The position numbers were made by a program, and so were the translations under genes. Positions 53,996-57,766 of a stretch of DNA of 64,000 nucleotides are shown piece after piece. This stretch comes from [Zimmermannella] alba NBRC 15616 (GTDB taxonomy: Bacteria > Actinomycetota > Actinomycetes > Actinomycetales > Microbacteriaceae): the NCBI RefSeq assembly GCF_001570905.1, contig NZ_BCSO01000010.1, positions 1-64,000 on the forward strand, in the 5' to 3' direction. Under the pieces are notes generated by a model. It was given only the letters and a program-made list of their open reading frames with translations, was not told the origin of the DNA and made no database searches. Numbering within the stretch: position 1 is the stretch's first letter; each line of letters opens with the position of its first letter.

Positions 53996-54157
53996 AGAAC
54001 TGGTCAGAAATCAGGGGTACGTGGCGCAGATGTCGACGTACCCCCGATTTCTGACCAAGTGCGGAAGCCGCTGCCGGTCGCGGTCTCCGGAAATGTGGCA
54101 TCTGGCGGGGGTACGCGGCCATATGTGGGTCGTACACCCACCAGATGCCAGATTTTG
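53996..54157. repeat. twin-hairpin element, copy 1 (family B)
   Basis: First hairpin: TGGTCAGAAATC (54001-54012) pairs with 54046-54057, continued by GGGGTACGT/ACGTACCCC. Second: TGGCATCTGG (54096-54105) pairs with 54141-54150, with inner GGGGTACG and ATATG. A second copy in the same order and orientation lies at 59.76-59.91 kb. Confidence 0.8.
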
Positions 54158-54334
54158 GAAGGGCGGCACGTCGCGAGGTGGCACGGCATGAGGCCGCGCG
54201 ATGGCCACAAAGCTGGATGGCATCGGGCTCCGAGCTTCGTGCACATCCACACATCCACCCGACACGTTCATTTCGGCGCGCGAAAATAGAGACAGCGGGT
54301 GAACCCTGACGCCCGCCAAAGGGAAGTGATTGGC

Positions 54335-56461
54335 ATGCCCGAAGCCCAGAACACCACCCACGCTGCCGACGAGATCCGCGATGCCTGGCGCGGATTCGAG
54401 CGCGGAGCCTGGACCGAGTCCATCGACGTCCGCGACTTCATCGTCCGCAACTACACGCCCTACGACGGTGACGCCTCATTCCTCGCCGGCCCCACCGAGA
54501 AAACGACGCGCCTCTGGAACACGCTCGAGGAGAACTACCTCAAGGTGGAGCGCGAGCGCCGCGTCTACGACGTCGACGTCGACACCCCCGCCGACATTGA
54601 TGCGTTCCCGGCCGGCTACATCTCCGAGGACGACGACGTCGTGGTGGGCCTGCAAACGGACGTCCCGCTCAAGCGCGCGATGATGCCGAACGGCGGCTGG
54701 CGCATGGTCCGCACCGCCATCCAGGAGGCGGGCAAGGACGTCAACCCGACCATCGAGACGGCCTTCACCCGCTACCGGAAGACGCACAATGACGCCGTCT
54801 TCGACATCTACACGCCGCGCATCCGCGCCGCCCGCAGCTCGCACGTCATCACCGGCCTCCCGGACGCCTACGGCCGCGGCCGCATCATCGGCGACTACCG
54901 TCGCGTCGCGCTCTACGGTGTCGACGCCCTCATCGCCGAGAAGCAGGCTGCGAAGGACCGCTACGCCGACATGCCCTTCAGCGAGCACTGGGCCCGCTAC
55001 CGCGAAGAGCACGCCGAGCAGATCAAGGCGCTCAAGAAGCTCCTCAAGCTCGGCGAACTCTACGGCTTCGAGCTCGGACGCCCCGCCGCGAACGCTCGCG
55101 AAGCCGTGCAGTGGACCCACCTCGCGTACCTCGCCTCGGTGAAGAGCCAGGACGGCGCGGCCATGTCGATCGGCCGCCTCTCCGCCTTCTTCGACTGCTA
55201 TGTGGAGCGCGACCTCGCCGAGGGCACGCTCACCGAATCCGAGGCGCAGGAGCTCATCGACGCGCTCGTCATCAAGCTCCGCATCGTCCGCTTCCTCCGC
55301 ACGATCGACTACGACCAGATCTTCTCCGGCGACCCGTACTGGGCCACCTGGAGCGACGCAGGATTCGGCGAGGACGGTCGCTCGCAGGTGACGAAGACCT
55401 CCTTCCGCCTCCTGCAGACCCTCCGCAACCTCGGTCCCGCACCCGAGCCGAACATCACGATCTTCTGGGACCCGGCCCTGCCCGCCGGCTACAAGGAGTT
55501 CTGCTCGGCGATCTCCATCGAGACGAGCTCGGTGCAGTACGAGTCCGACGCACAGATCCGAGAACGCTGGGGCGACGACGCAGCGATCGCCTGCTGCGTC
55601 TCCCCGATGAAGATCGGCCAGCAGATGCAGTTCTTCGGCGCCCGCGTGAACGCGGCGAAGGCGCTCCTGTACGCCATCAACGGTGGCCGGGATGAGATGA
55701 GCGGCAAGCAGATCGTCGACGGCCACACCGCCGTCGAGGGCGACGGCCCGCTCGACTTCGACGACATCTGGGACAAGTACGAGGACATGCTCGACTGGGT
55801 CGTCGGCACGTACATCGAGGCGCTCAACATCATCCACTACTGCCACGACCGGTACGCCTACGAAGCGATCGAGATGGCGCTCCACGACAGCGAAATCATC
55901 CGCACCATGGGCTGCGGCATCGCCGGGCTCTCGATCGTCGCTGACTCGCTCGCCGCAATCAAGTACGCGAAGGTGTACCCGGTGCGCGACGAGACGGGCC
56001 TCATCGTCGACTACCGCGTCGAAGGCGAATTCCCGGTCTACGGCAACGACGACGACCGCGCCGACGACATCGCCGCGACCGTCGTCCACACCGTGATGTC
56101 GAAGATCAAGGAGCACAAGCTGTACCGGGACGCCATCCCCACCCAGTCGGTGCTCACGATCACCTCGAACGTTGTCTACGGCAAGAACACCGGCAACTTC
56201 CCGTCCGGCCACCGTGCCGGAACGCCCTTCGCGCCGGGTGCCAACCCCGAGAACGGCATGGACACGCACGGCATGGTCGCGTCGATGCTCTCGGTCGGCA
56301 AGCTCGACTACGAAGACGCGCTCGACGGCATCTCCCTCACGAACACGATCACCCCGCAGGGGCTCGGTCGCACGAAGGAGGAGCAGGTGCAAAACCTCGT
56401 CGGCATCCTCGACGCCGGCTTCATCATGGACACGAACAAGGCCTTCGGTCCGAAGGCCTAA
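54335..56461 (+). CDS. pflB: pyruvate formate-lyase catalytic chain lacking the glycyl-radical domain
   Basis: Cleaves pyruvate with CoA to acetyl-CoA and formate under anaerobiosis. The 708 residues match PFL from [19 protein letters not shown] onward, with the catalytic cysteine pair C420-C421 in [12 protein letters not shown] and the late [17 protein letters not shown]. It then ends at [21 protein letters not shown], just where other PFLs (about 760-790 aa) enter the loop bearing the radical glycine. That domain is encoded by the next gene. ATG at 54335 is preceded by AGGGAAG; a GTG at 54299, six bases after TAGAGA, would add 12 residues. Spacer to the next gene is 113 bases. Confidence 0.93.
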
Positions 56462-56475
56462 CCCCTCGGCCTCAC

Positions 56476-56533
56476 GGGCGGCGCACACCCCGGCGTCGCC
56501 CGGATGCGGCGGGATCCAGCATCCACCGCATCC
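56476..56533 (+). other. two stem-loops between the split PFL genes
   Basis: GGGCGGCG (56476-56483) pairs with CGTCGCCC (56494-56501), one G-U included. GGATGCGG (56502-56509) pairs with CCGCATCC (56526-56533). They could set the ratio of the two subunits by processing or partial termination. Confidence 0.5.
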
Positions 56534-56574
56534 CCCCCACACCATCCACCGCCCGCCCAGCACTGGAGTACATC

Positions 56575-56826
56575 ATGGCCAAGCACACCTTCGACGAGCG
56601 CCTCGAAGCGATGAAGGCAGCCCGCACCGAACACAACATGGAGCAGGGGCTCTACCACGCGAACATCAACGTCCTGAACCGCGAGACGCTCGAGGACGCG
56701 ATGGCGAACCCCGAGAAGTACCCGAACCTCACCGTCCGCGTCTCGGGCTACGCCGTGAACTTCGTGAAGCTCACGCCCGAGCAGCAGCGCGACGTGCTCG
56801 AGCGCACCTTCCACCAGAACGCGTAG
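56575..56826 (+). CDS. grcA: stand-alone glycyl-radical subunit of pyruvate formate-lyase (GrcA/YfiD-like)
   Basis: 83 residues. After a charged helical N-terminus ([19 protein letters not shown]) it aligns with the end of [25 protein letters not shown], then the radical loop [11 protein letters not shown] with Gly58, then [14 protein letters not shown]. In E. coli the similar YfiD (GrcA) is a spare part for oxygen-damaged PFL; here the partner PFL has no glycine of its own, so this protein must be an obligatory subunit. Its own ribosome site (GGAG, eight bases before the ATG) and distinct N-terminus argue against a sequencing frameshift. Confidence 0.93.
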
Positions 56827-56881
56827 GGCGTGCTGGCGGAATTGGTTGTGGATGCCGCGGGCGACGCGGCGTGGGTGAGCG

Positions 56882-57766
56882 ATGCCTGCTGAATGCTTGA
56901 ACCCAGGCGGGCTGGACGCCGTCACGCTCGGCTCCGGCGGCGAGCTGCCGATTGCGCCGCGACGTGCCGGTGCCGGGACAGACGGCCTCGACGAGGTGAC
57001 GCTTGAGCGGCACGACCGGCTCTCGCGGATCCGCCGAGGTGAGCTCGGCACGATCCACTCGTGGGAGCTCGTCACCGCGGTTGACGGGCCGGGCACGCGC
57101 CTCACGATCTTCTTCTCGGGATGTCCGCTGCGCTGCCTGTACTGTCACAACCCCGACACGATCGAGGCGAAGGACGGGCAGGATGTGCCGCTCGACCACC
57201 TCGTGCAAAAGATCCGACGCTACGAGTCGGTGTTCCGTGCAACGCGGGGCGGGATCACGCTCTCGGGTGGTGAGGTGCTGCAGCAACCGAAGCTTGCCGC
57301 GCGGCTCTTGAAGGCCGCGAAGCATATGGTCGTGCACACGGCGATCGACACCTCTGGGTTTTTGGGCGCGAACGTGACCGACCAGATGATGGGCGATATT
57401 GACCTCGTGCTGCTCGATGTGAAGGCGGGGGATGAGGAGACCTACCACCGCGTGACGGGGCAGCGGCTGCAGCCGACGATCGACTTTGGTGACCGGCTCT
57501 CGGCGCACGGCGTCGAGATTTGGGGGCGCTTCGTGCTCGTGCCGGGGCTCACGGATTCGTGGGACAACGTCGAGAACGTGGCTGACATCATGGCCCGCTG
57601 GTCATCGCTCTCGCGTGTCGAGGTGCTGCCGTTTCACCAGATGGGGCGCGACAAGTGGGAGGCGCTCGGGCGGCGGTACGAGCTTGAGGACACGCAGCCG
57701 CCGAGCGCGGAGCTGCTGGAGCGGGTGCGCGACCAGTTCCGGGCCCGTGGCCTGACTGTGTACTAG
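56882..57766 (+). CDS. pflA: pyruvate formate-lyase activating enzyme (radical SAM)
   Basis: Abstracts hydrogen from the radical glycine using SAM and a 4Fe-4S cluster. The cluster motif is CPLRCLYCHNPD, followed by GGITLSGGEVLQQP, DTSGFLG and the C-terminal VEVLPFHQMGRDKWEALG. 294 residues, about 48 longer than E. coli PflA at the N-terminus (start of homology GTIHSWELVTAVDGPG); a GTG at 56996 would remove most of the extension. It follows the glycyl-radical gene by 55 bases in the same operon. Its substrate here is the small subunit, not a full PFL. Confidence 0.94.
   Translation: MPAECLNPGGLDAVTLGSGGELPIAPRRAGAGTDGLDEVTLERHDRLSRIRRGELGTIHSWELVTAVDGPGTRLTIFFSGCPLRCLYCHNPDTIEAKDGQDVPLDHLVQKIRRYESVFRATRGGITLSGGEVLQQPKLAARLLKAAKHMVVHTAIDTSGFLGANVTDQMMGDIDLVLLDVKAGDEETYHRVTGQRLQPTIDFGDRLSAHGVEIWGRFVLVPGLTDSWDNVENVADIMARWSSLSRVEVLPFHQMGRDKWEALGRRYELEDTQPPSAELLERVRDQFRARGLTVY

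Follow-up and report, generated by a model that had tools for sequence, protein, structure and literature searches.

The window analysed here, the whole stretch of 64,000 nucleotides (positions 1 to 64,000 of contig NZ_BCSO01000010.1) from [Zimmermannella] alba NBRC 15616, carries a pyruvate formate-lyase (PFL) whose glycyl-radical domain is encoded by a gene of its own. The initial annotation had read the locus as a large chain with a Cys-Cys active site that ends at the entry to the glycyl-radical domain, a separate small gene with its own start, ribosome-binding site and new N-terminus, and pflA as the next gene. Profile comparisons bore out this split organisation, which comprises the following parts.

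54335-56461, plus strand: pflB core chain of 708 residues, a PFL lacking the glycyl-radical domain; the open frame takes in a GTG at 54299 as well.
55592-55597, plus strand: codons of Cys420-Cys421 (E. coli C418/C419), in the motif ACCVSPM.
56462-56574, plus strand: spacer of 113 nucleotides with GGAG at 56565-56568 ahead of the small gene; frame offset 2.
56575-56826, plus strand: small radical subunit of 83 residues, NCBIfam GrcA2 (NF008341, 160.1 bits, cut-off 145), matching positions 64-106 of 106 of PF01228.
56575-56646, plus strand: residues 1-24 of the small chain, a new extension at its N-terminus with a predicted helix at residues 6-19 and a ratio of non-synonymous to synonymous variation per site (pN/pS) of 0.45.
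56746-56748, plus strand: codon of Gly58 in the motif RVSGYAV, the glycine predicted to carry the radical (E. coli G734).
56882-57766, plus strand: pflA, encoding a radical S-adenosylmethionine activase (TIGR02493, 289.7 bits, cut-off 231.75).

The large chain matched PF02901 with 632.7 bits and contains the catalytic core of PFL, namely the Cys pair and the substrate-site residues. In the family model TIGR01255 it covered positions 1-679 of 744 with 960.8 bits, below the cut-off of 994.2, and it has no radical domain; the missing end of the profile (positions 679-743) is the small chain. The two chains thus tile the family model and are complements of each other. Two segments lie outside this homology: a 12-residue tail that closes the large chain, and the first 24 residues of the small one, for which no clear counterpart was seen among the aligned intact PFLs. 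The small chain passed the cut-off of GrcA2 and failed that of the GrcA/YfiD model TIGR04365 (95.1 bits versus 170). The lengths of the chains do add up to 791 residues (708 + 83), as had been stated, yet this is not quite the size of a whole PFL: the pair is about 30 residues longer than the four nearest intact PFLs (756-764 residues) because of the new small-chain N-terminus and the large-chain tail.

A full-length PFL was not found elsewhere in the genome (2.14 Mb, 29 contigs, 99.96% complete), in which PF02901 matched the split locus only. PF01228 matched both halves of the split PFL and one further, weak place, identified as the anaerobic ribonucleotide reductase NrdD (L003:896-3297, minus strand, contig C6) with an adjoining activase gene. 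The genome therefore has a second glycyl-radical enzyme with its own domain and no whole PFL, and NrdD with its activase provides the host with further anaerobic capacity.

The split recurs beyond this genome, and more often than a chance arrangement would. In a search of the order of the window, 54 of 396 sampled genomes (window included) showed matches above the GrcA2 cut-off, and in all 54 a TIGR01255 core adjoins the small gene and ends at about the same place, profile positions 678-702, the highest values coming from alignments that run beyond the stop of the core. This search targeted GrcA2 genes and covered truncated PFLs only where such a gene is present; like the searches of a phylum (246 genomes) and a class (149 genomes) described below, it sampled a larger group. 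The spacers of the 54 pairs measure 4-139 nucleotides, and the frame offset is 0, 1 and 2 in 10, 20 and 24 pairs, respectively. Downstream of the small gene, 53 of the 54 pairs have a pflA-like gene in the same orientation, at a distance of at most 353 nucleotides. The first residues of the small chain are conserved, with the N-terminal consensus TYEERLASMKANR, where the ATG starts of all 64 small genes compared were assigned by a rule favouring ATG. The pairs are spread over seven family codes of the order, mostly over two of them (28 and 17 pairs), and an additional pair was found in another genome of the window's family (G792, core 85% identical). Two genomes gave a second GrcA2 match; these extra matches are weak and lie inside long frames (497 and 884 residues), and can thus be assigned to other enzymes. 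Named carriers are Corynebacterium xerosis, Corynebacterium sp. MSK008, Corynebacterium sp. TAE3-ERU16 and a Trueperella metagenome-assembled genome with a broken large frame; they are four of the best 80 of at least 589 candidate loci, the remaining 76 having an intact PFL.

A second split was revealed by the phylum search, in which ten genomes carried short radical-domain genes of the NCBI family GrcA3 (NF038360); its cut-off was passed by all four tested as proteins and by all ten in the class search. The latter yielded 45 PFLs above the TIGR01255 cut-off, 37 of which end at profile positions 665-670 and eight of which reach 741-744. Truncated PFLs and matches above the GrcA3 cut-off occur in exactly the same 37 genomes, and none of the eight genomes with an intact PFL is among them; in one additional genome of the class the PFL is interrupted by the end of a contig. 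Two of the ten genomes have a core 90.6% identical to that of Collinsella aerofaciens, where pflB and grcA3 are annotated, which identifies the class as Coriobacteriia. Here the cut lies about 20 residues earlier than in the window's lineage, the NLV...DGY helix sitting in the small chain. The ten fetched Coriobacteriia cores (L148-L157) end in new C-terminal tails, by eye roughly 25-55 residues long, with cysteines often arranged as CxC or CC (e.g. NPAPDCGCC); the tail of C. aerofaciens is shorter and lacks Cys. In a FastTree tree of 112 rows, including 30 of the 80 named loci, the split PFLs of Coriobacteriia form one clade (support 100) amid intact PFLs of other phyla and far from the GrcA2 lineage. 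As both the cut points and the places in the tree differ, two separate origins of the PFL split, one in the window's order and one in Coriobacteriia, would be the natural reading of these sequences. No full-length TIGR01255 PFL was found in any of the 64 split genomes searched (54 of GrcA2 type, 10 of GrcA3 type), nor, as stated, in the window's own genome, so that a whole PFL to back up the split pair did not turn up.

A CutC-like glycyl-radical enzyme is also split in one Coriobacteriia genome (G708; L263:2897-5536, minus strand; 480 bits, cut-off 1050). Its core ends at profile position 704 of 789, and 24 nucleotides past the stop a radical-domain gene of 98 residues lies behind AAGGGAG, followed by an activase-like gene. 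It is the one such case seen among the 149 genomes.

Both chains are under purifying selection. In GrcA2-type pairs the mean pN/pS was 0.21 in the core and 0.15 in the radical domain, next to the 0.45 of the new N-terminus given above; the corresponding values of GrcA3-type pairs were 0.21, 0.01 and 0.14. These means were obtained from 150 pairs among the GrcA2-type pairs listed and from 15 GrcA3-type pairs, at core identities of 85-98.5%. Nine positions were checked in the alignment used for the tree (57 split rows of the window's lineage, 10 split rows of GrcA3 type and 45 intact rows), seven of which we take to be PFL active-site residues in addition to the Cys pair. R176, A272, W333, C418, C419, F432, R435 and H514 were invariant in all 57+10+45 rows, and F327 was kept in every row but one intact one; all nine are thus invariant in the 67 split rows. 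C418/C419 is described as the active-site Cys pair of PFL in PMC12338860. A motif typical of the split cores of the window's lineage was seen at large-chain residues 581-585 (E. coli 578-582), where all 57 of them have the Ala and the His of ATxxH and 56 have its Thr. The nearest intact PFLs mostly have different residues there, the His being present also in the intact PFL of one genome of the window's family (G832). Filtering for split-specific substitutions gave five positions, including E. coli 578, 579 and 582, and a stricter filter gave three, including 579 and 582. ATxxH is a possible docking site for the new N-terminus of the small chain and serves as a lead only, as it was picked after looking.

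The core is truncated and no full-length PFL was found, so the radical would have to act in trans. We assign a probability of roughly 0.9 to the reading that the small chain is an obligatory subunit of a two-chain PFL and not a spare part. That the radical always acts in trans, as the initial annotation had claimed, is the best reading of the locus and in our view just as probable. In the proposed mechanism the large chain would provide the site for the substrate together with the two catalytic Cys residues, and the small chain would be the C-terminal glycyl-radical domain, set free as a subunit and extended by a new helix at its N-terminus. PflA would install the radical on Gly58, most likely while the small chain is docked on the large chain; the Gly58 radical would then oxidise Cys421, and pyruvate and coenzyme A would be converted to formate and acetyl-CoA. 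The sequences themselves show how the genes are arranged, that the two chains are complementary, recur together and are both under selection, and that no other PFL of this family was found. From this we infer that the chains assemble, that the PflA encoded next to them activates the enzyme, that the radical is passed on in trans and that the enzyme is catalytically active.

Catalysis of this kind has precedents in E. coli, where the radical of GrcA reaches C419 of PflB on another chain, as described in PMC12338860. In Andorfer 2021 (PMC8683613), E. coli PFL was cut after residue 695 (tPFL, 1-695) and YfiD before residue 61 (truncYfiD, 61-127), and the engineered pair was active in trans, reaching 204 s-1 per radical compared to 105 for intact PFL. 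The homology of the window core ends at E. coli 693-695, within about two residues of that cut, and the small chain resumes near 701. As the natural cut is nearly that of the laboratory construct, catalysis in trans is credible, and docking and activation appear as the problem which the natural pair had to solve.

Several observations weigh against an obligatory two-chain enzyme. The same study reports that 2.7 uM radical was installed with tPFL and truncYfiD and 0.5 uM with full-length YfiD, compared to 17.2 uM with PFL, i.e. roughly 6-fold (truncYfiD) to 32-fold (full YfiD) less, and that binding of tPFL was undetectable by calorimetry (PMC8683613). The man-made pair thus differs from the natural one, known here from sequence, in its weak binding and reduced radical installation as reported there, and the natural pair would need some way of docking more effectively, for which the helix newly present at the N-terminus of the small chain would be the obvious candidate. 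Many of the assemblies searched are drafts, and a second PFL could be missed in individual genomes. Structural modelling shares in these reservations. For a Corynebacterium pair whose two parts share a frame (L180), a read-through product, that is one chain, was modelled from an alignment of 50 of 74 usable intact PFL rows, which biased the model towards correct docking at the outset. In the new helix (residues 721-735) the predicted local distance difference test score (pLDDT) was only about 51-59, and the window's small chain modelled alone was of modest quality, its mean pLDDT of 69 being only fair, with YfiD (6OWR) as its best match. Within these bounds the L180 model has an overall pLDDT of 86 and a predicted template modelling (TM) score of 0.88, with local pLDDT values of 74-90 for the radical-domain blocks except the last (63) and below 50 for the spacer. 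Foldseek superimposed it on three E. coli PFL structures over 787-793 columns with TM scores of 0.90-0.96, and in this model the small domain fits the usual radical-domain site of PFL.

A question apart is what favoured the separation of the two chains. The initial annotation had proposed that a largely aerobic actinobacterium could cheaply discard and replace an oxygen-cut radical chain, and that the split was selected for this reason. Some carriers of the split PFL are probably facultative. Oxygen cuts charged PFL at the radical glycine, according to PMC12338860, and here such a cut would spare the 708-residue chain. Disposal would lead one to expect a stronger ribosome site at the small gene. 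The Shine-Dalgarno site of the small gene is stronger than that of the core in 19 of the 54 GrcA2-type pairs and equal in one (p 0.038), which is rather the reverse of this expectation, and it is stronger in six of ten GrcA3-type pairs (p 0.19); as the site is not stronger, nothing yet shows that the small chain is made in excess. The separate split in Coriobacteriia such as Collinsella, a gut anaerobe, and the presence of NrdD with its activase in the window's genome also speak against disposal, and a neutral route, in which a tandem spare is followed by loss of the original domain, fits equally well. The proposal was therefore not supported; as a hypothesis, the oxygen explanation is possible, the odds lying somewhat against it, and some evidence contradicts it as a general driver.

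A case that would fit the neutral route is Silvimonas terrae (L210:3381-6940), where an intact pflB is followed by an adjoining radical-domain gene of 61 residues and then by pflA, as in the split loci. In the window's family, G832 carries an intact PFL (L262, 78% identical to the window core and close to the split clade) and, at a separate locus (L261:2884-3204), a stand-alone radical domain of 106 residues with a different N-terminus, a candidate for an actinobacterial spare part. These two cases make plausible intermediate states between intact and split PFLs, and the split would result if a spare part arose and the original domain was then lost. The N-terminus of GrcA2 is not visibly shared with either small domain. 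The radical domain of GrcA2 (56 residues) shares 79-84% identity with those of four near intact PFLs and the bifidobacterial PFL and 82% with the stand-alone domain found in G832, the values for E. coli GrcA and PflB being 70% and 68%, respectively, which suggests that it likely came from actinobacterial stock; with 82% alongside 79-84%, origins from a PFL and from an actinobacterial spare are not separable.

Spare-like domains next to or alongside intact PFLs, as in these two organisms, and the NCBI label of the small chain, 'autonomous glycyl radical cofactor GrcA2', would agree with an E. coli-type spare (GrcA/YfiD) whose true partner is a whole PFL elsewhere in the cell. We regard this as very improbable, since such a PFL was found neither in the own genome nor in any of the 64 split genomes searched, the adjoining PFL is wholly without a radical domain, and the small chain fails the GrcA model. 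Even less probable is a decaying PFL with the split as a step to loss of function: the nine other sampled genomes of the genus have no match, which indicates that the locus is dispensable there, but low pN/pS on both chains, invariant active-site residues and persistence over seven family codes contradict decay. Least probable of all, and rejected together with a pseudogene, is a single gene, either interrupted by an error in sequencing or read as one product through programmed frameshifting or read-through of the stop codon, because, although ten of the 54 pairs have both parts in one frame with a short stop-containing spacer between them, the varied frames and spacers, the conserved small-chain N-terminus, the agreement of 54 genomes and the low pN/pS exclude it as a general cause.

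The number of splits within the window's lineage was addressed with a second tree of 51 rows (38 of the 57 split and 13 of the 45 intact rows, without GrcA3-type rows). Four intact PFLs with 79-80% identity to the window core (G452, G437, G317 and G506) fall within the split group in free trees. Constraining the 38 split rows together gave a likelihood better by 16.45 log units (p value of the approximately unbiased test 0.863, not rejected), and the linker of the compared intact PFLs has the length of that of the bifidobacterial PFL. Both results weigh against an origin of the four by re-fusion, and one split in the lineage would be the simpler reading, although not a proven one. Taken with the Coriobacteriia, we consider it likely, with somewhat less confidence than the obligatory role of the small chain itself, that a repair part turned into an essential subunit, giving an obligatory two-chain glycyl-radical enzyme with an exchangeable radical subunit, which would have arisen at least twice at different cuts and perhaps a third time in the CutC-like enzyme of G708, with the genes of Silvimonas and G832 as plausible intermediates.

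The nine other sampled genomes of the genus without a match to the split locus, together with the nearest relative of the window core in the 51-row tree, which belongs to another family of the order (G537, support 96), make the window's copy look horizontally acquired. A plasmid search with the core returned 135 records (134 at below 60% identity and one at 60-80%), among which no plasmid carrier of the window's lineage was seen. The phage search returned 1533 records, and the best among the matches listed are phage GrcA-like genes.

Compared to known systems, the window's enzyme shares its core fold, Cys pair, substrate-site residues, radical-domain sequence and activase PflA with E. coli PflB (TIGR01255; 2PFL, 1H16), which is however one chain of 759 residues, whereas the window encodes the radical domain in a gene of its own and adds a new helix to the N-terminus of the small chain. 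GrcA/YfiD of E. coli and Y06I of phage T4 (TIGR04365; 6OWR) are likewise stand-alone radical domains that reach the Cys of another PFL polypeptide; they are spares for an oxygen-cut or inactive PFL and have a longer, different N-terminus, while the partner in the window lacks a radical domain of its own. The families GrcA2 and GrcA3 comprise the window's small chain and the 37 small chains of Coriobacteriia, respectively, according to their cut-offs. Their label as autonomous cofactors carries the idea of a spare part, but the PFL is truncated in all 54 GrcA2 and all 37 GrcA3 genomes.

Two chains deposited in the PDB as 'Formate acetyltransferase', 38LB_A (739 residues) and 38LA_A (687 residues), are PFL cores without a radical domain. 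38LB matched a Coriobacteriia core over 705 residues including the Cys-bearing tail, and its N-terminal fragment of 195 residues is 84% identical to the core of another Coriobacteriia genome. Like the window's large chain they lack the radical domain, but they are not of the GrcA2 lineage, and no relatives of the small chain from these entries appeared among the matches listed in the small-chain searches. Both are absent from the 50 best matches of the fold library, which ends on 8 April 2026, and may therefore be recent; the Coriobacteriia form is probably under study by others. The initial annotation could not tell whether the split form is already described. In part it is, given the curated families GrcA2 and GrcA3 and the two PDB chains; a published account of a split PFL, or the word GrcA2 in a paper, was absent from the literature matches listed, in which subscription papers are poorly covered. 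The passages available from PMC11528403, PMC13252398 and PMC12288474 were among the literature checked without finding a description of the split. The enzyme thus appears to be a variant of a known enzyme combined with a known accessory, named in NCBI families, and its obligatory split seems undescribed among the literature matches listed.

A natural two-chain PFL would allow radical installation, storage and transfer to be studied on separate polypeptides, with damage, exchange and docking of the radical part directly measurable. In this bacterium and many relatives, a component that E. coli is known to use only as an emergency spare seems to be permanent and obligatory, and the misleading name 'autonomous cofactor' is corrected to the sole radical domain of PFL in the genomes compared. 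Pathway calls therefore go wrong where they consider only pflB or take grcA for a repair gene. Collinsella, with C. aerofaciens as a carrier, and Corynebacterium are genera that occur on people.

Two minor observations were made in addition. In G122 (L031:1489-1719, minus strand) a frame of 77 residues has a radical-domain match, with no core found within the 3.2-kb locus, and is a candidate for a fragment or a stand-alone domain. Upstream of pflB in the window, an inverted repeat at 54001-54057 has arms of 22 nucleotides that are 95% complementary; as similar copies occur at three other places in the genome, it represents an interspersed palindromic element.

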